This document shows positions 470 to 25,140 of a stretch of DNA of 64,000 nucleotides, piece by piece. This DNA comes from an uncultured Bacteroidales bacterium (lineage in GTDB: Bacteria > Bacteroidota > Bacteroidia > Bacteroidales > UBA932): assembly GCA_900318445.1 (NCBI GenBank), contig ONKO01000006.1, positions 1 through 64,000 on the forward strand. Reading direction: 5' to 3'. The notes below the pieces were generated by a model, which was given only the letters and a program-made list of their open reading frames with translations, did no database searches and had not been told where the DNA came from. Both the position numbers and the translations under genes were made by a program. Position 1 is the first letter of the stretch; every line of letters begins with the position of its first letter.

Positions 470-579
470 GCGTGGCGTCTATACACTTGGTAATCAACAC
501 ATTAGCACAACTGACGGGTATCGAAAACGCACCCGTCAGTTGTGCTAATACGCTCATATTCAAATGTTTAAGCGCCACG
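470..579 (+). repeat. 110-bp palindromic element R1 (diverged)
   Basis: It has the same length and layout as the five other copies: outer arms CGTGGCG / CGCCACG and a central hairpin starting 32 bases in. The central stem is TTAGCACAACTGACGGGT instead of TTAGAGTAACTGACGGGT. Both arms carry the matching change, so pairing is kept. Confidence 0.8.
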
Positions 580-588
580 CTGCGGCAC

Positions 589-782
589 GGTGGACCAGGT
601 CCAGCACCATTTTGGACGAGGTCACATTTTAACCCTTGGACCTGGTCCAGCACTTATGCCCTGTAGGCACCTGGGAGCCACACTCGGTGGACCTGGTCCA
701 GCACCTTTTTGGACGAGGTCCCATTTTAACTCTTGGACCTGGTCTAGCACTTATTCCCTCTAGGCACCTGGGAGCCACACTC
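589..782 (+). repeat. Two tandem 97-bp repeats with TGGACCTGGTCCA palindromes
   Basis: Unit starts are at 589 and 686, and a third partial unit begins at 783. Each contains TGGACCTGGTCCA (or a one-base variant) twice, a GGACGAGGTC half-variant, and CACCTGGGAGCCACACTCGG at its end. Copies differ at several scattered positions, so the duplication is not very recent. Confidence 0.8.
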
Positions 783-1004
783 GGTGGACCTGGTCCAGGG
801 CATAGAGTTGGACCTCGTCCAAATCTTGAGTGGACCTGGTCCAAGGCCCGAAGTGAAGACCAAGGCCCGAAGTGGGGACCAGGCCCGAAGTGGAGACCAG
901 CGCCCGAAGTGGGGTCCAAGGCCCGAAGTGGAGCCCAAGGCCCGAAGCCAATCCAGCCCCTGACTCTCTGCCGGGCCCCACACAAGAACCCGGCCCCACA
1001 CAAG

Positions 1005-1042
1005 AACCCGGCCCTGAGGCAAGGCGCCTCGTGAGCCGGGTT
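1005..1042 (-). terminator. Possible terminator hairpin after tpiA
   Basis: AACCCGGC (1005-1012) pairs with GCCGGGTT (1035-1042), and GAGGC/GCCTC nests inside. It lies about 20 bases past the tpiA stop on the minus strand. The following T-run is poor, so the call is weak. Confidence 0.35.
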
Positions 1043-1063
1043 TAATACGTATGTGCTGGCAGC

Positions 1064-1819
1064 TTAGAAGCTGAGGGCGATGGCCAGGAAGTCATCGGCC
1101 TTGAGGGCGGCGCCACCGATGAGGCCACCGTCGATGTCCTTCTCGGCGAAGAGCTCCTTGGCGTTGGAGGGCTTGCAGGAACCACCGTAGAGGATGGTCA
1201 TGTCGTCGGCCACCTGGGCACCGAATTTCTCGGCGATAACGTTACGGATGCAGGCGTGGATTTCCTCGGCCTGGGCGGCAGTGGCGGTTTTTCCGGTGCC
1301 GATGGCCCAGACGGGCTCGTAGGCGATGACTACGTTCTTCATGTCCTCGGCGGTGAAGTTATAGAGGACGTTCTTGGTCTGGGCGGTAACAACGTCGAAG
1401 TGCTTACCAGCCTCACGCTCCTCGAGGTTCTCACCCACGCAGAGGATGACCTTGAGGCCGGCGGCAAGGGCCAGCTGGGTTTTCACGACCAGCTTCTCGT
1501 CGGTCTCGCCGTAGTACTGGCGACGCTCGGAGTGACCGAGGATGGTGTACTGGCAGCCCAGGGAAGTGAGCATGTTCACAGCCACTTCACCGGTGTAGGC
1601 ACCTTTCTCGTGGTCTGCGCAGTTCTGGGCGCTCAGGGCAACCTTGGAGCCCTTGAGGACGTCTGCCACGGGATAGAGGTGGGTGAACGGAGGAGCAACA
1701 ACCAGTTCTACGTTGGCGGGAAGTTTTTTGGACTTTTCTACTACAGCTTTGGCGAGTTCTACGCCTTCGGGCACGGTGGTGTTCATTTTCCAGTTGCCCG
1801 CAACAATGAATTTTCTCAT
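1064..1819 (-). CDS. tpiA: Triosephosphate isomerase
   Basis: Interconverts dihydroxyacetone phosphate and glyceraldehyde 3-phosphate in glycolysis and gluconeogenesis, in the cytoplasm. At 251 residues it has normal family length. It shows the substrate-binding GNWKMN (Lys11), the electrophile His96 in LGHSERR, the catalytic base Glu168 in AYEPVWAIGTGKTA (also the flexible loop 6), and the phosphate-binding YGGSCKPSN and GGLIGGAALK loops near the C-terminus. The ATG is preceded by an A/T-rich leader. It is separated from the upstream phosphotransacylase by a strong hairpin (1851-1880), so it is probably its own transcription unit. The identification is secure. Confidence 0.98.
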   Translation of the reverse strand: MRKFIVAGNWKMNTTVPEGVELAKAVVEKSKKLPANVELVVAPPFTHLYPVADVLKGSKVALSAQNCADHEKGAYTGEVAVNMLTSLGCQYTILGHSERRQYYGETDEKLVVKTQLALAAGLKVILCVGENLEEREAGKHFDVVTAQTKNVLYNFTAEDMKNVVIAYEPVWAIGTGKTATAAQAEEIHACIRNVIAEKFGAQVADDMTILYGGSCKPSNAKELFAEKDIDGGLIGGAALKADDFLAIALSF

Positions 1820-1850
1820 ATTAAATAAAAATTAACCTTTATACACTACA

Positions 1851-1880
1851 TAAAAAGATGCCCGGACAAAAGCCGGGCAT
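1851..1880 (-). terminator. Rho-independent terminator of the ackA-phosphotransacylase operon
   Basis: ATGCCCGG (1858-1865) pairs perfectly with CCGGGCAT (1873-1880) around a 7-base loop, and the minus strand continues into CTTTTT. It lies a few bases past the phosphotransacylase stop. Confidence 0.85.
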
Positions 1881-1885
1881 AACTT

Positions 1886-2791
1886 TTACTTTACAGACAT
1901 TACGGCCGAAGCGATGGAGTTGAGTTTCACATCTACGGAGTCGGCACGGGAAGCCAGGATGCAGGGCACCTTGGTACCCACGAGGAAACCGGCCTGACGG
2001 ACGTCCTTGGCCAGCTTGGAGTTGGTCTTCCAGAACACGTTGGCGCTCTCGATGTTGGGGAACAGGAGGCAGTCGGCGTCTCCGGCCACGGGGCTCACGA
2101 GCTTCTTGATCTCTACAGACTCCTTGTCGATGGCCACATCCAGGGCCAGCGGACCGTCACCGATGGCCTTGATCTGGCCGCGGTCGCACATCTTGGCCAG
2201 CATGGCGCCCTCGATGCAGGCGGGCATGCTGTCCAGCATCTGCTCGGAGGCGGCGATGAAGGCAATCTTGGGAGTGGCGATGCCGAAGCTGCGGGCCACA
2301 CCGGTCACAAAGCCGGCCATCTTTACCTTCTGGCGGAAGTCCGGAGCGGGAATCACAGCCATGTCGGTGATGAAAATGAGCTTGTGGTAGTTGGGGTTCT
2401 CGATAACACCCACGTGGGAGAGAAGGCCCTTCGGAGGAAGCAGGCCCACCTCCTTATTGAGGATGGCGCGCAGGAACTTGTCGGTGGAGCACAGGCCCTT
2501 CATGAGGACGTCTCCCTCGCCGTCGTGCACCATGCGGACAGCCTCGGCCACAGCCTTGAGCTCGTCCTTGATGTCCACGATCTCAAACTTGGCCATGTCA
2601 ATGCTGCAATCCTGGCACACCTTGGCGATGAGCTCGCTGTCACCCACCAGGGTAACCTTCACGAAGCCCATGTCGGTAGCCAGGGAAGCGGCCTCGATGG
2701 TGTGGGAGTCTACGCCCCAGGCAGCCACCATCTTCTTGCAGATATTCTTTGCCTTGAGTTCGGCAAACAGTTCATTGAAATTGGTAATCAT
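1886..2791 (-). CDS. Phosphate acetyl/butyryltransferase (Ptb-type)
   Basis: Transfers an acyl group between CoA and phosphate, giving acyl-phosphate for ATP formation by the kinase encoded just upstream. About 301 residues. The C-terminal half carries the Ptb-type signature DGPLALDVAIDKESV followed by PVAGDADCLLFPNIESAN, and LLSHVGVIENP lies mid-protein. The length also fits the short Ptb branch of the PTA_PTB family rather than long Pta proteins. I chose the ATG at 2791 (MITNFNELF), with AGGA about 8 bases upstream; an ATG at 2812 would add seven residues and overlap ackA. It lies 4 bases after ackA, so the two are one operon. Whether the substrate is acetyl- or butyryl-CoA cannot be read from sequence; pairing with acetate kinase favours acetyl. 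Confidence 0.88.
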   Translation of the reverse strand: MITNFNELFAELKAKNICKKMVAAWGVDSHTIEAASLATDMGFVKVTLVGDSELIAKVCQDCSIDMAKFEIVDIKDELKAVAEAVRMVHDGEGDVLMKGLCSTDKFLRAILNKEVGLLPPKGLLSHVGVIENPNYHKLIFITDMAVIPAPDFRQKVKMAGFVTGVARSFGIATPKIAFIAASEQMLDSMPACIEGAMLAKMCDRGQIKAIGDGPLALDVAIDKESVEIKKLVSPVAGDADCLLFPNIESANVFWKTNSKLAKDVRQAGFLVGTKVPCILASRADSVDVKLNSIASAVMSVK

Positions 2792-2795
2792 ATCT

Positions 2796-4010
2796 TTATT
2801 CCTGATTTTCAAGTACTAGATGCATGGTATCGCGGGCAATCACCAGTTCCTCGTTGGTGCAGATGAGGGCCGCCTTCACCTTGGAATCTTCCGTGGTGAT
2901 GATGGCGTCTTCGCCGAAGGCCACATTGGCTTCATAATCTACCTTGAGGCCCAGGTAGGAGAAGTTCTCCAGCACGCGGCGGCGCAGGCGGCTGTTATGC
3001 TCGCCGATACCGCCGGTGAACACGATGAGGTCTACACCGTTCATGGCAGCCACATAGGAGCCGATGTTCTTGATGATATCGTAGGTGAACTTCTTGAACA
3101 CGAGCTTGGCCTTGGGATCTCCGTTGTTGGCGAACTCGTCCAGTTCACGGGCATCGGAGCTCTTGGTGGAAAGGCCCAGGAAGCCGGACTTGCGGTTGAG
3201 GATGACGGACATTTCGTCGGGGGTGACGCCCAGCTTGTTCTCCAGGTAGATGACGGCGTTGGCGTCGATGTTACCCACGCGGGTGCCCATGATCATGCCC
3301 TCCAGCGGGCTGAAGCCCATGGACGTATCCACGCACTTGCCGTTCTGGATGGCGCAGATGGAACTGCCGGCGCCCAGGTGGCAGGTAATAATCTTGGAGG
3401 AGTTGATGTCCAGGCCGGCCAGCTTGGCGCCCACACCGGCTACAAACTGATGGGACGTGCCGTGCGCACCGTAACGGCGTACGCGGTATTTCTCATAATA
3501 CTCGTAGGGAAGGCCGTACATATAGGCATAGGCAGGCATGGTCTGGTGGAAAGCGGTGTCGAAGGTAACCACCTGCGGCACGCTGGGAAGGACCTCCTGC
3601 ATGGCGTGGATGCCCAGAAGGTGGGCGGGATTGTGCAGCGGGGCGAAATCCGAGCAGAAGTCGATCTTCTGGAGGACGTCGTCGTTCACCAGCACGGAGC
3701 CGGAGAAGAAGTCTCCACCCTGCACGATACGGTGGCCCACCGCCTCGATGTCCTCGAGCGACTTGAGCACGCCGGTTTTCTTATCGGTCAGTGCGGCCAG
3801 GATGAGCTGCATACCCACTTTGTGGTCCGGGATGGGAACGTCGGTCACTATCTTTTCCCCTCCGGTGGGAGCATACTGGAGAATGCCGGCGGGAAGGCCG
3901 ATCTTCTCTGCGATACCCTTTGCAATGATGTCATAGACATCGTCGCTCTTCATGTCCAGCAGCTGATACTTGATGCTGGAAGAGCCGCAGTTGATTACAA
4001 GAATGATCAT
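2796..4010 (-). CDS. ackA: Acetate kinase
   Basis: Makes acetate and ATP from acetyl phosphate and ADP, the last step of acetate fermentation. At 404 residues the length fits acetate kinase rather than butyrate kinase (about 355). Seen motifs: N-terminal VINCGSSSIKYQLLD (ASKHA fold phosphate loop), GHRIVQGG, APLHNPAHLLGI, FDTAFHQTMP, RRYGAHGTSH, TCHLGAGSSI and MGFSPLEGMIMGTR. The usual YGFHGTSH reads YGAHGTSH here, a mild change next to the catalytic histidine. A TATCTTTG -7 box on the minus strand (4052-4059) lies about 40 bases upstream. It is transcribed ahead of the phosphotransacylase, the reverse of the common pta-ackA order. Confidence 0.96.
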   Translation of the reverse strand: MIILVINCGSSSIKYQLLDMKSDDVYDIIAKGIAEKIGLPAGILQYAPTGGEKIVTDVPIPDHKVGMQLILAALTDKKTGVLKSLEDIEAVGHRIVQGGDFFSGSVLVNDDVLQKIDFCSDFAPLHNPAHLLGIHAMQEVLPSVPQVVTFDTAFHQTMPAYAYMYGLPYEYYEKYRVRRYGAHGTSHQFVAGVGAKLAGLDINSSKIITCHLGAGSSICAIQNGKCVDTSMGFSPLEGMIMGTRVGNIDANAVIYLENKLGVTPDEMSVILNRKSGFLGLSTKSSDARELDEFANNGDPKAKLVFKKFTYDIIKNIGSYVAAMNGVDLIVFTGGIGEHNSRLRRRVLENFSYLGLKVDYEANVAFGEDAIITTEDSKVKAALICTNEELVIARDTMHLVLENQE

Positions 4011-4051
4011 AAGTTTATGTTTGTACAGTTAATGTTTTCACTATATCCATG

Positions 4052-4059
4052 CAAAGATA
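4052..4059 (-). promoter_or_regulatory. ackA promoter -7 box
   Basis: TATCTTTG on the minus strand fits the Bacteroidota -7 consensus TAnnTTTG. No convincing -33 TTTG is seen. It sits in the 74-base gap between ackA and the divergent comEC-like gene. Confidence 0.6.
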
Positions 4060-4084
4060 CGAAATTATTACTAATTTCGCACAT

Positions 4085-5170
4085 ATGAGGGAAAGCGTCA
4101 GGAGCATCGAAGCCATCTCCCTGTGCTTCACTGCGGGAGTCGTGACGGGGACGGTGCTGTTCCCGGGCACGGGCCTCCTCCTTCCCGCCCTGCTGCTCCC
4201 CGTCCTCGCCCTCCCCTGCCTCTTCCGCAGCCGGCTTCTGGGCGCGCCGGAGCCCGTATCGGCCGGCATCATCCTCCTCACCTTCCTTCTCGCGGGCATC
4301 TTCGCCGCGCGCAGTGCCGCCCTTCCCGCGGCGTCCACCATCGGCCCAATCGAAAGGCTGGCCGATGGTGCCGCGCAGTCGCTTCGCTCCGTCATCGGCT
4401 CGCTGCCCTTTCCCTCCGGGGAGACGGTGCCCCTCCTCAGTGCCTTCCTCACCGGCGACCGGAGCGGGCTCACACCTCAGCTGACGGCCCTTTTCCGGGA
4501 CAGCGGTGCCTCGCACCTCCTGGCCCTATCGGGCCTTCACATGGGCATCCTGTACCTGGTTTTCGATGCGTTCACAAAGCCCCTCGGCCATACGCCGGAA
4601 GCCCGCCGCCTGCGCTTTGTCCTCCTCACGGCCGGAACCGGCTTTTTCACTCTCATGACAGGCGCGGGGCCGTCCGTCGTGCGGGCGTTCCTTTTCATCA
4701 TCATCAGCGAGACCCTGCGCCTGAAGCAGCGCCCCCGCAGCAGCGCCCGGGTGTACTGCATGGCCCTTCTCATCCAGCTGGTGCTGGACCCTTCCGTCAT
4801 CGGGAGCCTGGGCTTTCAGCTGTCGTACCTCGCCATGGCCGGCATCTTCCTTGTCTACCCCGTCCTGGAACGGTGGTATCCGGAAGGAAGCCGGTACAAC
4901 CCCCTCCGGTGGCTGTGGAACACGGCGGCCCTCAGCATCAGCTGTCAGCTTTTCACCGCGCCCCTCGTGTGGATGCGTTTCCACACCTTCCCCCGCCTGT
5001 TTCTCCTGACGAACCTCCTGGTCCTGCCCCTTATGAGCGCCCTCATGATAACGGCGGTTCTCACGGTGGGGCTTGCCGCCATCGGCCTTCCGTGGCAGCC
5101 CCTGATAACAACAACAGACGGCCTGTGCCGTCTGCTGCGATGGATTCTCGAAATTATCTGCGGAGTGTAA
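4085..5170 (+). CDS. ComEC/Rec2-type DNA-uptake channel protein (competence domain only)
   Basis: Inner-membrane protein with the ComEC competence domain, which carries single-stranded DNA into the cytoplasm during natural transformation. About 361 residues from the ATG at 4085 (MRESVRSIEA). Several hydrophobic segments are visible, and the family signature LLALSGLHMGILY occurs mid-protein, followed by LTAGTGFFTLMTGAGPSVVRA. Full-length ComEC is usually 600-800 residues with an OB-fold domain before and a metallo-beta-lactamase domain after the channel. Here both are missing or very short, as in many Bacteroidota proteins. It ends 17 bases inside the convergent apbE gene. A role in competence is inferred from family membership; no other com gene is in the window. 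Confidence 0.88.
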   Translation: MRESVRSIEAISLCFTAGVVTGTVLFPGTGLLLPALLLPVLALPCLFRSRLLGAPEPVSAGIILLTFLLAGIFAARSAALPAASTIGPIERLADGAAQSLRSVIGSLPFPSGETVPLLSAFLTGDRSGLTPQLTALFRDSGASHLLALSGLHMGILYLVFDAFTKPLGHTPEARRLRFVLLTAGTGFFTLMTGAGPSVVRAFLFIIISETLRLKQRPRSSARVYCMALLIQLVLDPSVIGSLGFQLSYLAMAGIFLVYPVLERWYPEGSRYNPLRWLWNTAALSISCQLFTAPLVWMRFHTFPRLFLLTNLLVLPLMSALMITAVLTVGLAAIGLPWQPLITTTDGLCRLLRWILEIICGV

Positions 5171-6185: not shown

Positions 6186-6205
6186 CTTGGCGCGAAAATT
6201 GTGTA

Positions 6206-6213
6206 CAAAATTA
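6206..6213 (-). promoter_or_regulatory. apbE promoter -7 box
   Basis: TAATTTTG on the minus strand, about 20 bases before the apbE ATG, matches TAnnTTTG. Confidence 0.55.
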
Positions 6214-6255
6214 CAAAATTTTCACGATATTTGCGAACTATATATCAGGAGAATG

Positions 6256-13851: not shown

Positions 13852-13894
13852 GGGTTTTTCCCGGATTCCGGCAATATCGGGCCGTGCCGTGCCG

Positions 13895-14080
13895 GGCTCA
13901 GCGGCGCAGGTCCCGGGGCCAATGGCGCAAGTTCCGGGGCCGATGGCGCAGGTTCCGGGACCGATGGCGCAGGTCCCGGGGCCAATGGCGCAAGTTCCGG
14001 GGCCGATGGCGCAGGTTCCGGGCTCAATGGCGCAGGTTCCGGGGCCGATGGCGCAGGTTCCGGGCTTTTCGGCAATGCCA
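13895..14080 (+). repeat. 21-bp minisatellite (GGCGCAGGTTCCGGGGCCGAT type)
   Basis: About eight to nine imperfect copies of a 21-bp unit alternate GCAGGTTCC with GCAAGTTCC or GCAGGTCCC, and GGCCGATGG with GGCCAATGG or GACCGATGG. Read in one frame it would encode a MAQVPGP heptapeptide repeat, but there is no start context or conserved protein. The copies form a higher-order pattern, so larger blocks were also duplicated. Confidence 0.85.
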
Positions 14081-14088: not shown

Positions 14089-14198
14089 CCGTGGCGCTTA
14101 ACCTACTTATTATCAATTAATTAGAGTAACTGACGGGTATCAAAAAGCAACCCGTCAGTTACTCTAACGCGCTGACTTTCAACGAATTAACCGCCACG
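14089..14198 (+). repeat. 110-bp palindromic element R2
   Basis: Outer arm CCGTGGCGCTTA at the left and TTAACCGCCACG at the right. The central hairpin TTAGAGTAACTGACGGGT (from 14121) pairs with ACCCGTCAGTTACTCTAA. It lies on the 3' side of the RAYT transposase, whose 5' side carries R3. Confidence 0.9.
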
Positions 14199-14245: not shown

Positions 14246-14370
14246 CGGAGTCATCGGCCACACGCCACACCATGACTATCGGCCACACGCCACACCATGA
14301 CTATCGGCCACACGCCACACCATGACTATCGGCCACACGACCCGCCATGACTATCGGCCACAGGGTCGGT
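14246..14370 (+). repeat. 25-bp tandem repeat overlapping the transposase 3' end
   Basis: Units of CATGACTATCGGCCACACGC plus CACAC start at 14271, 14296, 14321 and 14346 (the last degenerate), with a partial unit before them. Each contains ATCGGCC. The transposase stop codon and its last ten or so residues lie in this repeat. Confidence 0.85.
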
Positions 14371-15282
14371 CACGGGCAGGCGGAGGAACTTGAGGATCTG
14401 CTTCCGTGGGGCTACGGTGCGGGTCTCCAGAAACGGGACAAGCGCATAACGACCGGCTTCAGGCATGAGGAAAAGGTCATGGATATCGGCGAGTCCCTTC
14501 TCTGCCATCAGGGAGCGTGTCATTTGGGCGTAGACCTTGTCGTCCCAGCCTACGAACTTCTCTTCAATGTCATGCTCGCTGCCTTTTGTCAGGCGCATGG
14601 CTTCGAGCATGGCTTCATAGCTGCCAAAGTACGCGATAGCCGCCTCGTAGTCTATTACATTATAAGAGGTCACAATGAAGTCGGCCAGTTGCTGCCGTTC
14701 CATGGAGCCCAGGGGCTTAAAGAGCCACTGAAGGGTCTGGTAGCGAAGCGGCTGGTTCTTGCCGGCCTTGTCCCTGACCAGCGACACGGCGCGGCGCAGT
14801 GCCTTCGACGCCGATGCGAGCCTGAGCGGCTCGGAGAACGGGTGGTCATTGTGGTAATAAGCCAGAAAGGACCAGCGGTACTCTGCTGCCAGGGCGGAGA
14901 GTTTTCGCTCCGGACCGTTGTTACCCAGATAGATAAGGGCCGTCCTTACACTTTTGTCTCCCATCTTGGGAGCACTGCCAAAGGGCTTGAGAAACAAAGG
15001 TGTCGGATGATGACACATTCTGTTCTGCATGGAAGCGAAGTGGGTCGTATACTCCTGCACAAAGGCCGACAACTCTTCACTCTCCTGCGCGCGAGTACAG
15101 TGGTGCAGGTGGTCTGGCATCAGGACCAGCGACAGAACACTTACCCGGTGCCTGCGGGCCGAGGCACAGATGAACGTGAAACAGGCAAGATAGTCCGAAA
15201 CGTTGTAAAACAGGACCTCCTCCCCCGCGGTTTTCTGAAAACAGTGGTTAACCGCTCCTGGAATAAACCTTCTTTTATGCAT
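14326..15282 (-). CDS. REP-associated tyrosine transposase (RAYT, Y1/IS200-like HUH family)
   Basis: Single-strand DNA nickase-transposase of the HUH class, about 318 residues from the ATG at 15282 (MHKRRFIPGAVNHC). It has the RAYT-like N-terminus, the metal-binding HUH motif MPDHLHH (His58, His60) and a candidate nucleophile Tyr118 in IYLGNNGPERKL, a position like the conserved Y..NP of RAYTs. The C-terminal half (about 150-318) is an extra domain I do not recognise. An in-frame extension to 15444 lacks family similarity. The last residues (ADSHGGSCGR) are encoded by the 25-bp tandem repeat. Flanking 110-bp elements R2 and R3 make it the likely agent of that repeat family. No RNA-guide gene or partner protein is adjacent. 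Confidence 0.88.
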   Translation of the reverse strand: MHKRRFIPGAVNHCFQKTAGEEVLFYNVSDYLACFTFICASARRHRVSVLSLVLMPDHLHHCTRAQESEELSAFVQEYTTHFASMQNRMCHHPTPLFLKPFGSAPKMGDKSVRTALIYLGNNGPERKLSALAAEYRWSFLAYYHNDHPFSEPLRLASASKALRRAVSLVRDKAGKNQPLRYQTLQWLFKPLGSMERQQLADFIVTSYNVIDYEAAIAYFGSYEAMLEAMRLTKGSEHDIEEKFVGWDDKVYAQMTRSLMAEKGLADIHDLFLMPEAGRYALVPFLETRTVAPRKQILKFLRLPVTDPVADSHGGSCGR

Positions 15283-15456
15283 ATCTTGGCGGCACGGCCT
15301 AATCCGCGCCTTCATAAAGTTAGGACAAGTTTGGCAGACCATCACCCAATCGGCTAAAACAAAATGCAGATTTTTATGTTTTAGCCACTTTCGTTCATTC
15401 GTCCCTGAAATCTGGGACGAAAATAAGCGGCTAAAACCACACATGCGACATTTTGA

Positions 15457-15566
15457 CCGTGGCGGCTAATGCGCTGATTAATAACCGATTAGAGTAACTG
15501 ACGGGTCACTTTTCGATACCCGTCAGTTACTCTAACGAGCTCTCTCTCAGCGAGTTAAGCGCCACG
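15457..15566 (+). repeat. 110-bp palindromic element R3
   Basis: Outer arms CCGTGGCGGCTAA and TTAAGCGCCACG. The central stem TTAGAGTAACTGACGGGT starts 32 bases in (15489), as in every other copy. It lies upstream of the transposase start. Confidence 0.9.
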
Positions 15567-15835
15567 CCCGATGAGAAGGGCGAGGGAGAGACAGCGGGGA
15601 GGCCGAGGGCGGGCCGAGGGACAGGGCCGAGGGCAGGCCGAGGGGCAGGGCTGAAGGCCAGGCAGAGGAGCAGGGCCGATGCCAGGCCGAGGGCCGGGGC
15701 TGAAGGCCAGGCAGAGGAGCAGGGCCGATGCCAGGCCGAGGGCCGGATGCCAGGCCGAGGGCCTGGGCCGATGCCGGGCCGAGGGACAGGGCCGATGCCG
15801 CCCCGGCCCCAGCACCACCCCCAACACCACCCCCA
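15567..15835 (+). repeat. Low-complexity GGCCGA-rich tract with a 49-bp duplication
   Basis: Irregular repeats of AGGCCGAGGGCAGGGCCGAT. Within it a 49-bp unit is duplicated (15649 and 15698). It directly follows R3. Confidence 0.75.
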
Positions 15836-15907: not shown

Positions 15908-15933
15908 CAACAGTAACCAATTCAAGAAGCACT

Positions 15934-16542: not shown

Positions 16543-16544
16543 TT

Positions 16545-17930: not shown

Positions 17931-17936
17931 GTGCCT

Positions 17937-18146
17937 ATGCCGATCATCACCAATATAGATGTCATGCTGGCCCGCCGGAAAATGTCTTCCGGCGAGCTGG
18001 CGGAGAAAGTCGGCATAACTCCCGCCAATCTTTCTATCCTCAAGTGCGGCAAGGCCAAGGCCATCCGCCTGAGTACCATGGAGGCTATCTGCGAGGCACT
18101 GGACTGCCAGCCCGGCGATATTCTGGAGTACAGGCCTCAGGAGTAA
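17937..18146 (+). CDS. Small XRE-family helix-turn-helix regulator
   Basis: DNA-binding protein of about 69 residues made of a single Cro/C1-type HTH (SSGELAEKVGITPANLSILK) and ending in CEALDCQPGDILEYRPQE. This is the compact YozG-like form. I take the ATG at 17937 (MPIITNIDVMLARRKM); a GTG at 17931 would touch the flotillin stop. Its place directly behind flotillin suggests co-transcription. The target is unknown. Confidence 0.85.
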   Translation: MPIITNIDVMLARRKMSSGELAEKVGITPANLSILKCGKAKAIRLSTMEAICEALDCQPGDILEYRPQE

Positions 18147-18204
18147 GGGGCTTTGGCGCCGGCCGTGGCTAGCGAGGCTGTGACCGTGGCTAGCGAGGCC
18201 GTGG

Positions 18205-18314
18205 CCGTGGCGCTTAAGTATCACATTTTCAACGCATTAGAGTAACTGACGGGTGTGGTTTTCATACCCGTCAGTTACTCTAATCTAGTGATAATCAGCA
18301 ACTTAACCGCCACG
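18205..18314 (+). repeat. 110-bp palindromic element R4
   Basis: Arms CCGTGGCGCTTAA and TTAACCGCCACG. Central hairpin from 18237 with stem TTAGAGTAACTGACGGGT. Confidence 0.9.
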
Positions 18315-18315
18315 G

Positions 18316-18475
18316 TCAAAAGGGAGGGACGAGCCGAGGACGGAGAGGCGGGCCGAGGGAAGGCCGGGGCGGGCCGATGACGGAGAGGAGGGCCGATGAC
18401 GGAGAGGGCAAGGCCGAAGGAAGGCCGGGGCAGGCCGGAGAGGCGGGACGAGGGCGGCGAGGCGGGAACGAGGCC
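18316..18475 (+). repeat. GGCCGA/GACGGAGAGG low-complexity tract
   Basis: Irregular repeats such as GGGCCGATGACGGAGAGG (twice) and AAGGCCGGGGC, directly after R4. Very similar in style to the tract after R3. Confidence 0.7.
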
Positions 18476-18481
18476 GAAGGG

Positions 18482-18513
18482 TTTGACGGAGTCCGGGAAA
18501 AAGACTATATTTG
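18482..18513 (+). promoter_or_regulatory. Promoter of the mannose-1-phosphate guanylyltransferase operon
   Basis: TTTG (18482-18485), a 20-base gap and TATATTTG (18506-18513) match the Bacteroidota consensus at both boxes. The ATG lies 21 bases downstream. Confidence 0.75.
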
Positions 18514-18534
18514 TGTTTTAGCACTGAAACGAGT

Positions 18535-19575
18535 ATGAATACACACGTTGTTATCATGGCCGGCGGCATCGGAAGCAGACTGTGGCCGCTTTCCACTCCG
18601 GAAGTTCCCAAGCAGTTCATTGACGTGCTGGGGGTCGGAAAAAGCCTCATCCAGCTCACCGTAGAACGTTTTGCACCGGTGTGTGAACCGGGCAATTTCT
18701 GGGTGGTGACCGGCGAGAAGTACGTGGAGCTGGTGAAAGAGCAGCTGCCGCAGATTCCCGCAGAGCAGATCCTCGCAGAGCCCGAAGGCCGTAACACGGC
18801 GCCGTGCATTGCCTATGCTTCCTGGAAAATCCAGAAAAAAGACCCCGAGGCCAACATCGTGGTTACCCCCGCCGACGCCCTGGTGCTCAAGACGCAGGAG
18901 TTTGCGGAGACCATTGCCAAGGCGCTGGCGTTCACGGCGGAGCGGGATGCCATTGTCACGGTAGGCATCGCCCCCACCCGTCCCGAGACCGGCTACGGCT
19001 ATATTCACGCCACAGAGGCCCTGCACGGGCAGCTCGTGAAGGTGAGCGAGTTCCGGGAGAAGCCAGACCTTGATACCGCCATCGGCTATCTTGAGGACGG
19101 CCACTACTTCTGGAATGCCGGCATCTTCGTGTGGAACGTGGGCACAATCATCGGCGAGCTTCGCGCCTATGCACCCCAGATAGCCGGGGTGATGGACGAG
19201 CTGGCATCGGCCTTTTTCACCGAGAAGGAGAGCGCGGAGCTGCATCGGCTATTCCCTACCTGCGAGAAAATCTCCATCGACTACGCCGTCATGGAGAAGA
19301 GTCCGCGCATCTACGTGATTGCCGAGGACCTGGCCTGGAGCGACCTTGGCAGCTGGGGCTCCGTGCAAACGCACATTGAGGCCGACGAAGACAACAACGT
19401 TACCGTGGGCAGCGACGTCCGCCTCTTCGGCTGCCGGGACTGCTTTGTGCATACCGCCGAGGAAAAGACCGTGGTGGTCGAAGGCCTGGACGGCTACATT
19501 GTGGCCGAGTCCAAGGACCGCCTTCTCATCTGCCGCCTGTCCCAGGAACAGCATATCAAAGAATATTCAGCCTAA
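18535..19575 (+). CDS. manC: Mannose-1-phosphate guanylyltransferase
   Basis: Makes GDP-mannose from mannose 1-phosphate and GTP for glycan synthesis. About 346 residues, fitting the short form without a C-terminal isomerase domain. Motifs: the nucleotide-binding MAGGIGSRLWPLS at the N-terminus with the catalytic arginine, VPKQF, AEPEGRNTAPCIAYAS, VTPADAL, ETGYGYI, FREKPD, YFWNAGIFVWNV and SIDYAVMEKS, then DLGSWG. The ATG at 18535 fits the promoter. It is followed after 5 bases by two phosphatase genes. Confidence 0.95.
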   Translation: MNTHVVIMAGGIGSRLWPLSTPEVPKQFIDVLGVGKSLIQLTVERFAPVCEPGNFWVVTGEKYVELVKEQLPQIPAEQILAEPEGRNTAPCIAYASWKIQKKDPEANIVVTPADALVLKTQEFAETIAKALAFTAERDAIVTVGIAPTRPETGYGYIHATEALHGQLVKVSEFREKPDLDTAIGYLEDGHYFWNAGIFVWNVGTIIGELRAYAPQIAGVMDELASAFFTEKESAELHRLFPTCEKISIDYAVMEKSPRIYVIAEDLAWSDLGSWGSVQTHIEADEDNNVTVGSDVRLFGCRDCFVHTAEEKTVVVEGLDGYIVAESKDRLLICRLSQEQHIKEYSA

Positions 19576-19580
19576 AATAC

Positions 19581-20885
19581 ATGAAAAAAACAGTTCTGAT
19601 TCTGACGGGTCTTCTGCTCGCATGGGCGGCAGGAGCCCAGACTTCCCGTGAGGAACTCCTTTCGCACATGGAGCTCACGGCCGGAAACTACGCCAACTAC
19701 CCGGCGCCCACCGGCCACCTCACCCCCGCGCCGGAAGGCTACGAGGCCTTCTACATCAGCCACTACGGCCGGCACGGGTCCCGTTACATGACCAGCGACA
19801 AGGCGTACCGGCGGCTCCGCCACCAGCTGGACTCGGCCCGCGCCCTCGGCATCCTCACGCCGTATGGGAAGGACGTGAGAAGGCGCATCAAGGTAGCATC
19901 GGCCGATGCCCGTGACCGCGCCGGAGAGCTCACCGCCCTGGGCGCCCGACAGCACCAGGCCATCGCTCGGCGCATGTACGACAACTACCCCGCGCTCCTG
20001 AGCCAGCCGCTCCAGGTATCGGCCAACTCGTCCGATTCCCGCCGCGTGATGCTGAGCATGGCCTACTTCGTGAACGAACTCAAGGCGCTGAATCCGTCGC
20101 TGAGCGTTTCCATGGACGCCAGCCAGCACGACCTCTATTACATCAAATCCAACAAGGCCATCGTGGTGCCTCCCTGCCCCACGGATGGTATGCTATACGA
20201 CAAACTGGAGCAGTTCAAGCACAAGCTCCTGAGCGGAGAGCCGCAGATGCAGGCCCTGTTCACGGACCCCGACAAGGCCCGGACATTCATCAACCCGTGC
20301 GAGATGGCCGAGGACCTGTTCAAGACGGCCATCGACATGTACTGCCTGCCGGAGCTGGGCATCCGCTTTGACGACCTCTTCGGCGAGAAAGGCATGATAG
20401 ACGGGTTCCGCGTGCACAACGCCAGCTGGTGCCTGTGGGAGGGCCTCATGCCGGGCTCCGAGAAGAGCTATTACCGCATCTATCCCCTGCTGCAGAACTT
20501 CCTGGACGAGGCCGATGCCATGATCGCCGCCGGCGGAAAGGGAATCCGCCTCCGCTTTGGCCACGACAGCATTGTGCTGCCCTTCACCTTTGTCCTGGGC
20601 TTCCCGGAAGCTACGAACACGACCGACGACATGGAGAACCTGCACAAGACCTTCTCCATCTTCCGCCTCATTCCCATGGCGGCCAACGTGCAGCTGGTGT
20701 TCTTCCGAAAAGACGGCAGCAACGACATCCTGGTCAAGTTCCTGATGAATGAGAACGAGACCTCCGTCCCCGTCAAGACAGACTGTTATCCGTATTATCA
20801 CTGGTCCGACGTTTCCACCTACTACAGGAACCTGATCGAAGACGCCCACCTCCAGTACCAAACCCCCGAAGAAGATGAAGACTAA
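19581..20885 (+). CDS. Secreted histidine acid phosphatase (MINPP/phytase-like), copy 1
   Basis: Exported phosphomonoesterase of histidine phosphatase clade 2, 434 residues. The signal peptide ends near AWAAGA. The nucleophile motif is RHGSR (64-68, His65), and the proton-donor pair is His328-Asp329 in RFGHDSIVLPF, so the active site is complete. Inositol-phosphate (MINPP-like) or sugar-phosphate substrates are plausible, since Bacteroidota use such enzymes on phytate, but specificity is inference. The paralogue downstream overlaps it by 11 bases, and the guanylyltransferase gene lies 5 bases upstream. Confidence 0.88.
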   Translation: MKKTVLILTGLLLAWAAGAQTSREELLSHMELTAGNYANYPAPTGHLTPAPEGYEAFYISHYGRHGSRYMTSDKAYRRLRHQLDSARALGILTPYGKDVRRRIKVASADARDRAGELTALGARQHQAIARRMYDNYPALLSQPLQVSANSSDSRRVMLSMAYFVNELKALNPSLSVSMDASQHDLYYIKSNKAIVVPPCPTDGMLYDKLEQFKHKLLSGEPQMQALFTDPDKARTFINPCEMAEDLFKTAIDMYCLPELGIRFDDLFGEKGMIDGFRVHNASWCLWEGLMPGSEKSYYRIYPLLQNFLDEADAMIAAGGKGIRLRFGHDSIVLPFTFVLGFPEATNTTDDMENLHKTFSIFRLIPMAANVQLVFFRKDGSNDILVKFLMNENETSVPVKTDCYPYYHWSDVSTYYRNLIEDAHLQYQTPEEDED

Positions 20886-22134
20886 GTTTATTGTATCGTT
20901 TATGCTGCTCCTGTCTCTGGGGGCAGCCGCACAGACTTCCCGGAGGGAGATGGCACGCGAACCGGGGCGCACCGGATCGGCCTACTTCGCTTACCCTGGC
21001 CCGTCGCAGAAGGCCCTCACGCCGGCACCGGCCGGATACGAGCCCGTCTACATCAGCCACTACGGCCGGCACGGGTCGCGTTACATGACCGACAACAAGT
21101 ACTACGTGCAGGCCATCGGCATGCTGGATTCCGCCGCCCGCACGGGCATCCTCACGCCGATGGGCGCGCAGGTGCTGGAGAAACTGAACACGGCTTATGC
21201 CGATGCCCTGAGCCGCGACGGAGACCTCACCAAGCTGGGCGGACGGCAGCACCGGGATATCGCGCACCGCATGTATGAGCGCTTCCCGTCGCTCCTTTCC
21301 CAGCCGCTGAAGGTGGACGCGCGCTCCTCTGTCGTGGGCCGATGCATGATCAGCATGTTCTACTTCTCACAGGAACTCCAGGGGCTGAATCCGGCGCTGG
21401 AAATCCGGATGGATGCCAGCAAGCGTGACATGCCATTCGTGGTGGGAGACGAGGACGTGGAAAAGCCCGAGGGGGCACAGGCCGATGCACTCAAGGCACG
21501 GGTTACCGCCATGCAGGACAAGGCCTACAACCCCGCCCGTCTCAAGAAAGTCCTTTTCACGGACGTAAAGAAGGCCGATGCCTTCGTGGACGGCGTAAAG
21601 CTGATGAAAGCCCTGTACAACATAGCGGAGGATATGCAGAACGTGCCGGAGTTGGGAATTGACCTGCTTGGCATTTTTACCCGGGAGGAACTGTTTGCCA
21701 TCTGGAACGGAAACAATGCCGGATGGCTGCGCCACTGCGGACTCCTGCCGGGGTCTACGCCAAGGTTCCTGGAGCAAAAGCCCGTGCTGGACAGTCTGGT
21801 GGCTGCGGCCGACAGGGCTGTGCGTTCTGGCGTCCCGTCTGTATCTTTAAGGTTCAGTCACGACAGCGCCGTACTCCCGCTGGCCTACCTCATGGGCCTG
21901 AAGGAAACGCAGGGCTGCACTGCAGACGTGGAGAACCTCTACAAGAGAGTTTCCATTGACAAGATCATCCCCATGGCTGCCAATATCCAGCTCATCTTCT
22001 ACCGCAAAGAGGGCTCCGAGGACATCCTGGTAAAATTTCTTCTGAACGAGAATGAGACCGCCATTCCCGTAAAGACAGATGTATCACCGTATTACCACTG
22101 GAGCGACGTCAAAGCTTATTGGGAGGCAAAATAA
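20875..22134 (+). CDS. Secreted histidine acid phosphatase (MINPP/phytase-like), copy 2
   Basis: Tandem paralogue of the preceding gene, 419 residues. The signal peptide ends in SLGAAA. The nucleophile motif is again RHGSR (65-69), in the shared context YISHYGRHGSRYMT. The acid motif reads RFSHDSAVLPL, with Ser in place of Gly before His-Asp; the catalytic residues are still present. The shared C-terminal segment VKFLLNENETAIPVKTD closely matches copy 1. The start overlaps copy 1 by 11 bases, implying translational coupling. Confidence 0.88.
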   Translation: MKTKFIVSFMLLLSLGAAAQTSRREMAREPGRTGSAYFAYPGPSQKALTPAPAGYEPVYISHYGRHGSRYMTDNKYYVQAIGMLDSAARTGILTPMGAQVLEKLNTAYADALSRDGDLTKLGGRQHRDIAHRMYERFPSLLSQPLKVDARSSVVGRCMISMFYFSQELQGLNPALEIRMDASKRDMPFVVGDEDVEKPEGAQADALKARVTAMQDKAYNPARLKKVLFTDVKKADAFVDGVKLMKALYNIAEDMQNVPELGIDLLGIFTREELFAIWNGNNAGWLRHCGLLPGSTPRFLEQKPVLDSLVAAADRAVRSGVPSVSLRFSHDSAVLPLAYLMGLKETQGCTADVENLYKRVSIDKIIPMAANIQLIFYRKEGSEDILVKFLLNENETAIPVKTDVSPYYHWSDVKAYWEAK

Positions 22135-22159
22135 TTTTGAAAAATTTTTCGAAAAAACA

Positions 22160-22190
22160 TTTGCAGTTTCAAAAAAAGTAACTACCTTTG
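22160..22190 (+). promoter_or_regulatory. tRNA-Lys promoter
   Basis: TTTG (22160-22163), 19 bases, then TACCTTTG (22183-22190): both boxes match the Bacteroidota consensus. The tRNA starts 22 bases downstream. Confidence 0.75.
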
Positions 22191-22211
22191 CAATCCCGAT
22201 TTGGGACGGAG

Positions 22212-22309
22212 GACTCGTTAGCTCAGTTGGTAGAGCACAACACTTTTAATGTTGGGGTCTCGGGTTCGAGCCCCGAACGGGGTCTCGGGTTCGAGCCCCG
22301 AACGGGTCA
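22212..22309 (+). tRNA. tRNA-Lys(TTT) with a tandemly duplicated T-arm
   Basis: Acceptor GACTCGT, D-arm GCTCAGTTGGTAGAGC, and an anticodon stem-loop CAACA-CTTTTAA-TGTTG with anticodon TTT. A 25-base segment holding the variable loop, the T-arm and the start of the 3' acceptor strand then occurs twice in tandem (22255-22279 and 22280-22304). Only the second copy is followed by ACGGGTC (22302-22308), which pairs fully with the 5' acceptor; after the first copy the strand would read ACGGGGT and lose the end pairs. So either the mature RNA carries an extra hairpin in its variable region, or it ends at an imperfect acceptor. Confidence 0.85.
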
Positions 22310-22321
22310 CAAAAGATACCA

Positions 22322-22397
<76 letters not shown>

Positions 22398-22400
22398 AAA

Positions 22401-22426
22401 GCCAGGCAGAAATGCCTGGCTTTTTT
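22401..22426 (+). terminator. Rho-independent terminator of the tRNA operon
   Basis: GCCAGGCA and TGCCTGGC pair perfectly around GAAA and are followed by TTTTTT. Confidence 0.92.
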
Positions 22427-22439
22427 GTACGCACCTTCT

Positions 22440-22455
22440 CCGATGTACGTACATC
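22440..22455. repeat. Perfect palindrome CGATGTACGTACATCG
   Basis: A 16-base perfect palindrome immediately left of R5. The same palindrome is directly left of R6 (25011-25026), and a related one lies left of R1. Confidence 0.8.
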
Positions 22456-22460
22456 GGTGG

Positions 22461-22570
22461 CCGTGGCGCTTATCACACTGACAATCAGCGCGTTAGAGTA
22501 ACTGACGGGTATGAATAGCATACCCGTCAGTTACTCTAATCGTTTAGTATTCAAGTATTTAAGCGCCACG
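22461..22570 (+). repeat. 110-bp palindromic element R5
   Basis: Arms CCGTGGCGCTTA and TAAGCGCCACG. Central stem TTAGAGTAACTGACGGGTAT from 22493, loop GAATAGC. Nearly identical to R6, including its flanks. Confidence 0.92.
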
Positions 22571-22609
22571 GACCACCGCTACGACGAGCCTCGTAAAAAC
22601 CCTCCTAAC

Positions 22610-22668
22610 GGTGGCCGTCAGCAACCACAAATGTCACAATCGACAACCAATAATATCAATTATACCGC
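22610..22668 (+). repeat. Intergenic repeat family F, copy 2
   Basis: CCACAAATGTCACAATC followed by CAACCA and TCAATTATACCGC, matching 312-370. Confidence 0.65.
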
Positions 22669-22693
22669 TTTGAGGGCCGCATAGTAATCCCAC

Positions 22694-22781
22694 TGCGGGT
22701 AACCGGACATTATTGGTCAAGTTACCGTCAAAAACGGCCTTTTTTGCGGGTAACCGGACTTAATTTGTCAAGTTACCCGCA
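22694..22781 (+). repeat. Intergenic repeat family E, copy 1
   Basis: GCGGGTAACCGGAC occurs twice, each followed by TCAAGTTACC; GCGGGTAAC and GTTACCCGC are inverted. The same arrangement recurs at 60725-60811. Confidence 0.75.
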
Positions 22782-22857
22782 CTACAGGCATTTTAACGCC
22801 CATTGAGGGACCTGCGCCAGAGCGACACACACCGCGCAACAATTCTGTCATTTTTCC

Positions 22858-22865
22858 TATCTTTG
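22858..22865 (+). promoter_or_regulatory. -7 box upstream of the phosphatase remnant and GH43 gene
   Basis: TATCTTTG matches TAnnTTTG. The -33 region is not convincing. It precedes the decayed lipoprotein start by 32 bases and may still drive the GH43 gene. Confidence 0.5.
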
Positions 22866-22897
22866 CAGATACCACTAACACTGACACACACTAGACC

Positions 22898-23313
22898 ATG
22901 AAACACATCTTTAGGTTTTTGCTTCCTGCACTGCTATTCACTGCATGCACCTCTGCTTCCAAGGCAAGGACCGCTGCGGATGGGGATCGGCCTTCGTTCT
23001 GGCAGCCCTGGGGGCCAGCCGGAAAACCATCGTAGAAGACTTCGGCCTGTCCAATGCTTCTTATGCTCCGGCCATTGAGGCCTTGTCGGCCAAAGTCGTC
23101 GAGAAAGGAGGCGGAGAGGCGGAGCTGGGCTTTATCCGCGCCATGATTGGCGTGAATGTAGAGAATTTCGAGAGTACGCTGGACCTGATTGATGCGCAGT
23201 ATGGCTCCCTCCAGGCGTACCTGGAAAAAGCGCTCGGTTTTACGCCCGAAGAGCAGGAGAGCATGAAACGGAAATACTTACGCAAAAATGCGCGATTTGA
23301 GGTTCTTAAGTGA
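22898..23313 (+). pseudogene. Decayed tyrosine phosphatase lipoprotein (internal deletion with frame change)
   Basis: An ATG at 22898 opens a lipoprotein signal (hydrophobic run ending LLFTAC) but stops after about 45 codons. In another frame, from about 22944, the sequence reads HLCFQGKDRCGWGSAFVLAA and continues to 23313. That matches the phosphate-binding loop of Y_phosphatase3-type enzymes (HCxxGKDRTGxG) and its C-terminal helices (EDFGLSNASY; ALGFTPEEQESMKRKYL). So the signal peptide is joined out of frame to the catalytic loop, with the N-terminal two-thirds of a normal ~250-330-residue protein missing. A short translated form cannot be excluded. The intact C-terminal frame overlaps nothing, and GH43 follows 7 bases later. 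Confidence 0.75.
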
Positions 23314-23320
23314 ATGTAGT

Positions 23321-24832
23321 ATGAAAAAACAGATTATCCTCCTTCTACTTCTGACAGCCTGCGCAGGACGTCCCGCTATGGTTGCGCCCTCACTGGACTA
23401 CCATAATCCCATCATCGGCGGTTTCCATCCGGACCCTTCCATCTGCCGGGTGGGGGAAGACTATTATATCGTGAATTCATCGTTTCAATATTTTCCTGGA
23501 GTGCCGGTCTATCACAGCCGTGATCTGGCTCATTGGGAGCTCATTGGAAACGCCCTGAACCGGGAATCACAACTACCTCTGCAGCAGTCGGGGTCGTGGT
23601 CTGGCATCTATGCAACTACCCTCCGCTACCATGATGGGCTGTTCTATATGGTCACCACCAACACAACCATCGGCAAAAATTTCTTTGTAACGGCAGAGAA
23701 CCCGGCCGGTCCCTGGTCCGAGCCTGTCTATCTGGAGCAGGCCGGGATAGACCCGTCCTTTCTCTTTGAGGACGGGAAATGCTATTTCGTGAGCAATCCA
23801 GAGGGGCAAATCACGCTCTGCGAGATAGATCCTGTCACCGGGAAGCAACTTACTCCTTCCCGCCCTATCTGGAACGGCATGGGAGGGCGTTTCCCGGAAG
23901 GACCACATATCTACAAGATAAAGAATTGGTATTATCTCCTGATATCCGAAGGCGGAACGGAACTGGCGCACTCACTTACGATTGCCCGCAGTCGGAATCC
24001 TTACGGCCCTTATGAAGCATGTCCCCACAATCCCATCCTTACACACTGCAGTCATGCTGGGGAAAACAACCCCATCCAGGGAACAGGACACGGAGATCTG
24101 GTTCAGGCACCGGACGGCTCCTGGTGGGTAGTTTTCCTGGCCTACCGCAATTTTGGCGGTAGCTACCACCATCTGGGCCGTGAAACTTATCTTGCGCCTG
24201 TCACATGGGAAAAAGGCTGGCCGATGGTGAATGGCGGAGCCCCCATCACAAGCGGCACGATGCCGCGGGAAGAAGTAACGCGCACATATGCCTTTGACAA
24301 GCCACTTGGCCCGGAATGGATCTATATCCAGAATCCGGATTCTTCCTGCTATGCAATTACAGGCGGCGAACTTCGCCTCGTTGGCAAGGGAGCACTGTCG
24401 GCAAACGACCATCCCACGTTTGTGGGCGTAAGGCAGGAAAGCGAAATCCTGGAAACCACGGTGCGGGTGTCTCTGGATGCCCCGGGTATGGCAGGCCTTT
24501 CCCTCTACCAGATTCAGGACGGCCACGCAGAACTCTCCCTGGTTCGCAGCAGGGAACATGTGCGTGCGACGGTCCATTACACGCTCAAGAGCATGGACTA
24601 TGACGCGGCCTCAGTACAGATTTCAGGGACATCGGCCTGGCTTAAAATCACGTCTGACGGCATTCAGTATCAATTCTATGTCTCCGAGGACGGGAAACAG
24701 TGGCTGTATCTCGACGCCATCAGTTCCGCGCTCCTTAGCTCGGAAGTCGTTGGAGGCTTCACCGGAATTGTGCTCGGGCTTTACGCAGAGAATACCGTGG
24801 CACGGTTCTCATCTTTGTGTATAAAAGAATAG
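23321..24832 (+). CDS. GH43 family glycosidase (beta-xylosidase/arabinofuranosidase type), lipoprotein
   Basis: Glycoside hydrolase family 43 enzyme of 503 residues, predicted to cleave xylosyl or arabinosyl units from hemicellulose. The lipobox LLLTAC puts acylated Cys14 at the N-terminus. Five-bladed propeller residues: the catalytic base Asp38 in FHPDPSICR, the Asp in GIDPSFLFEDGK that tunes the acid, and the proton-donor Glu in RFPEGPHIYK. A C-terminal beta-sandwich (~320-503) resembles the GH43_C2/DUF1349 domain. I chose the ATG at 23321, which starts the signal peptide; an upstream frame to 23288 overlaps the phosphatase remnant. It is alone, not part of a SusCD locus. Subfamily and substrate are inferred. 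Confidence 0.92.
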   Translation: MKKQIILLLLLTACAGRPAMVAPSLDYHNPIIGGFHPDPSICRVGEDYYIVNSSFQYFPGVPVYHSRDLAHWELIGNALNRESQLPLQQSGSWSGIYATTLRYHDGLFYMVTTNTTIGKNFFVTAENPAGPWSEPVYLEQAGIDPSFLFEDGKCYFVSNPEGQITLCEIDPVTGKQLTPSRPIWNGMGGRFPEGPHIYKIKNWYYLLISEGGTELAHSLTIARSRNPYGPYEACPHNPILTHCSHAGENNPIQGTGHGDLVQAPDGSWWVVFLAYRNFGGSYHHLGRETYLAPVTWEKGWPMVNGGAPITSGTMPREEVTRTYAFDKPLGPEWIYIQNPDSSCYAITGGELRLVGKGALSANDHPTFVGVRQESEILETTVRVSLDAPGMAGLSLYQIQDGHAELSLVRSREHVRATVHYTLKSMDYDAASVQISGTSAWLKITSDGIQYQFYVSEDGKQWLYLDAISSALLSSEVVGGFTGIVLGLYAENTVARFSSLCIKE

Positions 24833-24850
24833 AATTACGGCCTGCCCCCG

Positions 24851-24893
24851 ACGTGAAATCGGACAAAAACGGCAAAAATGTCCGATTTGGCGA
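24851..24893 (+). repeat. Intergenic repeat family D, copy 1
   Basis: ACGTGAAATCGGACAAAAAC followed by GGCAAAAATGTCCGATTTGG. ATCGGACA and TGTCCGAT form an inverted pair. Further copies are at 25242-25284, 52790-52831 and 52840-52882. Confidence 0.8.
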
Positions 24894-24972
24894 CGGGCGC
24901 AACCCGAAATCGGCGCAGGTTCACGGACAGGCGCCATCGGGGTGCTAGTGGGCTTTTTCGCAACTCCCCACC

Positions 24973-25027
24973 CGATGTACGTACAAAAAAACGCCAACCC
25001 AGTGCAGTTTCGATGTACGTACATCGG
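24973..25027 (+). repeat. Repeat family B, copy 2
   Basis: GATGTACGTACAAAAAAACG and then the palindrome CGATGTACGTACATCG (25011-25026), just left of R6. Matches 402-456 in order and spacing. Confidence 0.7.
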
Positions 25028-25030
25028 TAG

Positions 25031-25140
25031 CCGTGGCGCTTACAACACTGACAATCAGCGCGTTAGAGTAACTGACGGGTATGAATAGCATACCCGTCAG
25101 TTACTCTAATCGTTTAGTATTCAACTATTTAAGCGCCACG
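25031..25140 (+). repeat. 110-bp palindromic element R6
   Basis: Arms CCGTGGCGCTTA and TAAGCGCCACG. Central stem TTAGAGTAACTGACGGGTAT from 25063 and loop GAATAGC. Only a few bases differ from R5. Confidence 0.92.

Follow-up and report, generated by a model that had tools for sequence, protein, structure and literature searches.

The 64,000-nucleotide stretch of DNA analysed here (the window; contig ONKO01000006.1 of an uncultured Bacteroidales bacterium) contains six copies, R1 to R6, of a nested-palindromic element, two of which bracket a divergent transposase gene of the HUH (Y1) type. Its own draft genome (G000) comprises 2.31 Mb in 32 contigs and is 88% complete. We consider it probable that these elements are what repetitive extragenic palindromes (REPs) and REPINs (REP doublets forming hairpins) are to their own enzymes, here for divergent HUH (Y1) transposases of the REP-associated kind, and thus a non-autonomous family of the REPIN/REPtron kind that is mobilized in trans. 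The elements share one architecture, are dispersed through the genome, pair with cognate transposase genes and lie at positions that are not conserved among relatives; from this we infer mobilization by the cognate enzymes. A preliminary description of the six copies had proposed a non-autonomous mobile element resembling a REPIN or a miniature inverted-repeat transposable element, and this proposal is supported, since further copies are numerous and their positions are not conserved at the sites examined.

The six copies lie at 471–579 (R1), 14090–14198 (R2), 15458–15566 (R3), 18206–18314 (R4), 22462–22570 (R5) and 25032–25140 (R6). Their places, constant length and nested palindrome, as first described, are confirmed: the copies align without gaps within the element, the window has six occurrences of the core AACTGACGGGT-N11-ACCCGTCAGTT, compared with none in 100 dinucleotide-preserving shuffles, and all six fold better as single-stranded DNA than their own shuffles (z −7.8 to −13.0). 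A length of exactly 110 bp had been claimed; the constancy stands, but the symmetric unit is a dyad of 109 bp, and 110 is reached only with one further base on the left. The outer arms ascribed to the six copies are likewise present, except that R1 starts GCGTGG rather than CCGTGG. The central hairpin of R1 is indeed a compensated variant, with CAC/GTG replacing AGT/ACT, and this variant recurs in copies elsewhere in the genome. R3 and R4 match better in the opposite orientation, which is of little consequence because the element is nearly symmetric; no strand is assigned to any copy. All six carry the inner-stem sequence called key A below. R6 is 97% identical to R5 and 96% identical to a copy at C18:72032 (BLAST with R6), and the occurrence of near-identical copies in different contexts implies that some copying is recent.

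R2 and R3 enclose the transposase gene (14326–15444, minus strand), R2 lying 127 bp past its stop codon and R3 13 bp upstream of its ATG. The encoded protein of 372 amino acids carries the HUH histidines H112 and H114 and the tyrosine Tyr172, and by its sequence it is a divergent relative of the REP-associated tyrosine transposases (RAYTs). All three residues are retained in each of the 34 sequences aligned. At E ≤ 0.01, every one of the 34 hits the NCBIfam family REP_Tyr_transpos (NF047646; best 4.1e-13), and 33 hit Y1_Tnp, the only family that Pfam showed. The residue ahead of the first histidine is Asp in 19, Asn in 12 and Thr in three sequences, 25 of the 34 lack a Trp between HUH and Tyr, and the open frames of the subfamily span 296–386 codons from stop to stop. 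The best relative of solved structure, by profile match, is a transposase, PDB entry 2xo6 (E 0.0011), which we take to be ISDra2 TnpA; a structure predicted from two sequences was of low confidence (mean pLDDT 44.5). Subfamily relatives occupy 40 loci, fragments having been dropped, in 22 of 61 genomes, all congeneric, and by profile the subfamily is present in 23 of 37 genomes of the genus and in none of 24 genomes of other families. A named relative, in Bacteroidales bacterium UBA2861, shares 46% identity and has an element on each side. Short degenerate tandem repeats were also seen by eye around the window gene, at 13870–14060, 14270–14340 and 15590–15830.

The association of element and transposase extends to most of the 40 loci. 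Two covariance models were used, model R1 built from G000 alone and model R2 built from 97 elements without requiring the 11-base hairpin loop. With model R2, an element lies within 300 bp on both sides of 27 loci, on one side of nine and on neither side of four; at E ≤ 0.001 these counts become 23, 12 and five. Model R1, at any distance within the fetched locus, gives 13, 14 and 13, and is the fairer count because model R2 was partly built from Y1 flanks. Ten other G000 loci matching Y1_Tnp (L047 and L049–L057; some doubtful, with E up to 0.3) have no element within about 1.5 kb on either side.

The two elements at one locus share their inner-stem key, which differs between loci. The key score within a locus ranges from 8 to 18 with a median of 13 (28 loci), compared with a median of 5 and a 99th percentile of 11 between loci (630 pairs). 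Three Y1 genes of the subfamily were found in G000, each flanked by two elements of its own key (A, B or C), and solo copies are present for each of the three keys. Among 118 solo elements, 84 match a key of their own genome (58 of 71 in G000, 26 of 47 elsewhere), while matches to the keys of another genome amount to 96 in 2360 comparisons (4%). Because a key is common to the flanks of a Y1 gene and to many solo copies of the same genome, and differs between Y1 loci, the inner stem may be the address that the enzyme reads. Nearest Y1 relatives also share more of their keys than expected (8.53 versus 5.54, s.d. 0.31; none of 5000 permutations as high). In an exploratory comparison of the 73 pairs of enzymes that are 45% or more identical, uncorrected for relatedness, the key tracks the N-terminal (HUH) half of the protein (rho 0.33, p 0.004) but not the C-terminal half (rho 0.05).

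Comparison of loci bears on one alternative, in which an autonomous transposon of about 1.3 kb (element–Y1–element) has the elements as its ends and gives rise to the solo copies by internal deletion. The bracketing of Y1 genes at short distances, as in IS200/IS605, accords with this reading, which we nevertheless regard as very unlikely. In G000, three Y1 genes of the subfamily, each with a different key, stand against 46 key-A elements, and every flank is a complete symmetric unit. Moreover, beside a gene of the window termed gene X (18511–19575), two congeners (G005 and G061) carry Y1 genes 52% and 49% identical to that of the window, each with elements on both sides whose keys look, by eye, like key A, so that synteny has persisted despite this divergence. 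These are two of 11 congener gene-X loci, and the sequence examined at each extended about 1.5 kb to either side, a shorter span than the distance in the window. In G005 (contig C18, locus L110), three tandem elements 134 bp apart lie at 2440–2814, directly downstream of a Y1 gene.

BLAST with R6 gave 80 matching stretches in G000, many of them one place on both strands; a hairpin scan of the fetched G000 loci, which required the 11-base loop, gave 38 full-length copies in gapless alignment; and model R2 gave at least 149 matches with both strands counted. Combined, the scans place at least 82 distinct elements in the draft. Key A (AACTGACGGGT) is carried by 46 of them, all of 109 bp, key B (TCTCTTTAGGC) by 13 of 101–110 bp and key C (GTCGGGTGCAC) by six, and keys D, E and F by five, four and five, respectively. 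Three elements of 109 bp have other keys that appear to be diverged key A, and with these the family of the window numbers 49 elements in G000, every one of 109 bp. No reading frame stays open through 54 of 77 elements, compared with about 3% of 109-mers drawn at random from the window, so that by their reading frames the elements appear to be extragenic. A neighbour lies within 3 kb of 22 of 80 G000 elements compared with 15.7 expected and 34 in the largest simulated value, so that clustering is unremarkable.

Several local arrangements of these copies were noted. Key-A elements at three contig ends (C11:16197 in L034, C31:109 in L025 and C32:23247 in L022) are split in the hairpin loop by one sequence beginning GGCTCACCGGATAATTTCCG, of which both ends were seen. 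This appears to be an insertion sequence that breaks the assembly, and it may target the loop; some insertion sequences are reported to target REPs. Three elements on one contig (C30:73202, 73551 and 80630) have a common flank on one side or both (25 bases seen), and their key has diverged through changes that are mostly compensated, which suggests local duplication. A second repeat, CCGATGTACGTACAAAAAA...GGCATTCCAG...TTTCGATGTACGTACATC, lies in the window at 24972–25030 (plus strand), adjoining R6, and at about 400–455, and to the left of some 14 to 16 key-A copies. This GATGTACGTACA repeat is also found without a key-A element, in places repeated about 84 bp apart, and is probably separate. 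Element-free copies of it were used in a search for empty sites within the genome, and gave no clean before/after pair.

The anatomy of the element is an outer stem and a long inner stem, with TGATANTCA between them. In the 38 G000 copies the outer bases, positions 32–35 and 39–49 and the single bases 18, 20, 23 and 26 hardly vary, whereas much of positions 12–31 is near saturation; two of the 49 copies agree on average (1176 pairs) at 95% of the bases in conserved blocks and at 44% of those in variable blocks. Positions 36–38, which were left free in the scan concerned, agree between the arms in 33 of the 38 copies in four versions (AGT/AGT 20, CAC/CAC 11, TAC/TAC one, ATT/ATT one; five mismatched). 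Across species, 97 elements of 105–111 bp were compared. Paired cells make up 79.6% compared with 61.7% after shuffling and 36–40% after sliding, 715 cells are changed on both sides compared with 300 shuffled, and the covariation score is 0.518 compared with 0.199 shuffled (none of 500 as high) and 0.12–0.15 slid. Pairing reaches 83.8% in the outer helix and 79.7% in the inner one. These values support both stems, although the set of 97 was collected by a model in which pairing raises the score, and the count is therefore biased towards structure. T3, A11, T18, A26, T33 and their mirror images are invariant in at least 90% of the set, and the arm and stem sequences change among species while pairing persists. 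A mini-hairpin within TGATANTCA in each half was considered and rejected, as it has no covariation support in the 97 elements and a short TGATANTCA dyad is all that is present there. Arm-to-arm gene conversion was likewise rejected as the origin of the compensated stems, the variable parts agreeing at 8.1 of 20 positions within an element and at 8.9 between elements.

With model R1 (E ≤ 0.001), elements were detected in 20 of the 61 genomes, all within the genus; with model R2 (E ≤ 0.01), 29 of the 37 genomes of the genus have matches, as do four of 24 genomes of other families, the matches in these four being weak (E 3e-4 to 7e-3). Elements of congeners have the same architecture with different but complementary sequences. 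An insensitive order-wide search of 198 genomes (E ≤ 0.001, best 19 candidates per genome) found the element in the own genome only, and one further congener had none. Among the genus genomes with the Y1 subfamily, 21 of 23 have elements.

Individual sites are not conserved. R5 lies 64 bp after a tRNA-Lys pair, and all 18 congeners that keep this pair lack an element over at least about 770 bases downstream; six of the 18 were also searched at other sites, and all six have elements there (G003, G005, G019, G028, G061 and G171). Similarly, four of four congeners lack an element 5′ of the gene that follows R6; two congeners have an element on its 3′ side. The preliminary description had suggested orthologous intergenic regions as a guide to the exact ends and any target site. 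Such regions did yield sites lacking the element, but neither an exact empty site nor a target duplication was found.

A conserved structural RNA would be expected at an orthologous position beside the same gene, which is the case neither for R5 (0 of 18) nor at a position 5′ of the gene that follows R6 (0 of 4). We consider it extremely improbable that the elements are such an RNA or a transcription terminator, despite their strong predicted hairpins and the location, seen by eye, of R5 after the tRNA-Lys terminator and of a second copy (C16:127971) after a tRNA-like sequence. Rfam at gathering thresholds finds three tRNAs and no other family in the window, no T-run follows the hairpin in the copies printed, and near-identical copies such as R5 and R6 stand in differing contexts.

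The main rival explanation is that each copy is a site with a host function, such as protein binding, chromosome organization or an RNA hairpin, kept under host-level selection, the Y1 gene being a domesticated maintenance factor. This explanation appears improbable to us. All 46 key-A copies are of equal length, and the 95% identity of the conserved blocks beside 44% elsewhere is more constraint than expected of dead transposon copies. However, rapid loss of inactive copies would yield the same pattern, and copies without the conserved blocks are under-detected by the searches used. In addition, sites are unconserved where tested (0 of 18 at R5), and the stem and arm sequences vary between species and between families of one genome. 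Elements are also present in eight of the 14 genomes of the genus for which no Y1 gene of the subfamily was matched, a finding that favours host function.

That last observation also weighs against a REPIN-like family mobilized by its cognate enzymes, as do several others. One congener genome (G030, 97% complete) has at least 63 element matches with both strands counted and no subfamily Y1 gene at E ≤ 1e-15; its fetched elements have a common key (GTCTATGGG) and may be an orphan family or be served by another enzyme. No Y1 partner was found for keys D, E and F in the 88% complete draft of G000, 34 of the 118 solo copies lack a matching key in the genome that carries them, and four of the 40 Y1 loci have no flanking element. 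In hmmscan, the window protein reaches 27.2 bits against NF047646 (E 3e-6), below the cut-off of 80, and 21.4 bits against Y1_Tnp (E 2.8e-4), below the cut-off of 23; in a six-frame search, the gene scores 23.6 bits against Y1_Tnp. A Mantel test of protein identity against key over all locus pairs gave no correlation (rho 0.017, a value reached in 722 of 2000 permutations), so that enzyme/key co-variation is visible only among close relatives, and it may be plain shared ancestry. Finally, transposition itself was not seen, nor an exact empty site, nor a target duplication.

A mechanism can be outlined for the REPIN-like family that we favour. Where the region becomes single-stranded, for example as lagging-strand template, the element would fold into the outer stem, an internal loop of 20 + 20 nucleotides with TGATANTCA on each strand, and the long inner stem. 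The cognate Y1 enzyme would recognize the constant parts, or chassis, together with the inner-stem key, cleave via its tyrosine and move or copy the element in trans. The transposase gene itself would stay put, as RAYTs do and as the syntenic copy in two congeners suggests. Key and enzyme would drift together, with new copies carrying the current key replacing the old. A more specific proposal, which we put forward tentatively and which may well fail, is that of a modular address system. A constant chassis of about 108 bp, comprising the outer stem, the TGATANTCA of either strand and a TTA where the inner stem begins, would hold an interchangeable key read sequence-specifically by its own HUH transposase, with several orthogonal pairs per genome and genome-wide turnover of keys in concert with the enzyme. 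The many natural enzyme/key pairs on a nearly constant chassis, at least three of them in G000, would allow the choice of repeat by a RAYT to be mapped by key swapping, and the conserved-block identity of 95% beside a variable-base identity of 44% sharpens the question of why such pairs persist.

Among the matches listed in a literature search on REPINs and RAYTs in Bacteroidetes and Bacteroidales, no description of these elements was found, most subscription papers, figures and supplements being outside its scope. In Proteobacteria, REPIN/RAYT systems comprise dispersed extragenic hairpin repeats and a Y1 gene between two cognate copies, with co-evolution of enzyme and repeat reported and more than one pair per genome (PMC3116915, PMC2817692). 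The present system resembles them in its dispersed hairpin units, its Y1 genes with two cognate flanking copies and its several pairs per genome. It differs in having one long unit of nearly constant length with a palindrome that spans both halves and no supported hairpin in each half, in frames of 296–386 codons and in its host, a genus of Bacteroidales. Unlike REPIN/RAYT repeats, 61 of the 97 elements have GT[AG]G at neither end, while 36 have it at positions 2–5 of at least one end. As in RAYTs, the enzymes have the HUH motif and a single tyrosine, and most of their genes are flanked by two repeats of the same family, the window gene included, although the window protein falls short of the 80-bit cut-off of NF047646. 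As in REPs and REPINs, copies are many, dispersed and, by their reading frames, extragenic, but a GT[AG]G at the hairpin foot and two inverted REPs with local palindromes do not characterize them. Since these two defining features are lacking in an otherwise REPtron-like arrangement with a RAYT-relative enzyme, we regard the elements as a variant of the REPtron kind and not as canonical REPINs.

Other known arrangements share part of the design. As in IS200/IS605, there is an HUH/Tyr core with hairpins on either side of the gene; here, however, the repeats are many, the transposase genes few and each repeat is a complete symmetric unit. In TIR-flanked RAYTs (TIRYT), the Y1 gene lies within long inverted repeats, some of which belong to dispersed families, with the reported flank consensus GGGG[AT][CG]A[CG] and a DnaA-like C-terminal domain (PMC3733652, PMC6006769). 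Long inverted repeats flanking a Y1 gene, some of them dispersed, are common to both. The nested palindrome with TGATANTCA is not, and Pfam showed only Y1_Tnp in the present proteins, no search having been aimed at a DnaA-like domain.

The repeats of TnpAREP subclasses 2.4 and 2.6 are, in the literature covered, the nearest described relatives. Subclass 2.4, with Bacteroidetes among its hosts, has ‘double foot’ REPs, for which GT[AG]G is the defining feature and whose 5′ head recurs in reverse complement at the 3′ end, and proteins of median length 194 amino acids with the motifs NH[IFV]H, WQ and YIxNNP (PMC6006769). The motif Y..NN. found here resembles YIxNNP, and key-A elements start CGTGG and end CCACG; however, most of the present elements lack GT[AG]G, the residue before the first histidine is Asp, Asn or Thr, and 25 of 34 proteins lack the Trp. 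Subclass 2.6, from Bacteroidetes, is described as having ‘atypical secondary structures’, which are weaker, and repeats without GT[AG]G that have copies elsewhere in the genome; its proteins have a median length of 179 amino acids and the motifs NH[LIV]H and YIH[QN]NP (PMC6006769). It shares with the present system the Bacteroidetes host and the GT[AG]G-free flanking repeats with copies elsewhere, while the long stems and differing protein motifs found here set the two apart by text description, with overlap possible. From canonical REPs, the elements of the window stand apart in their great and nearly constant length and in having no universal GT[AG]G head.

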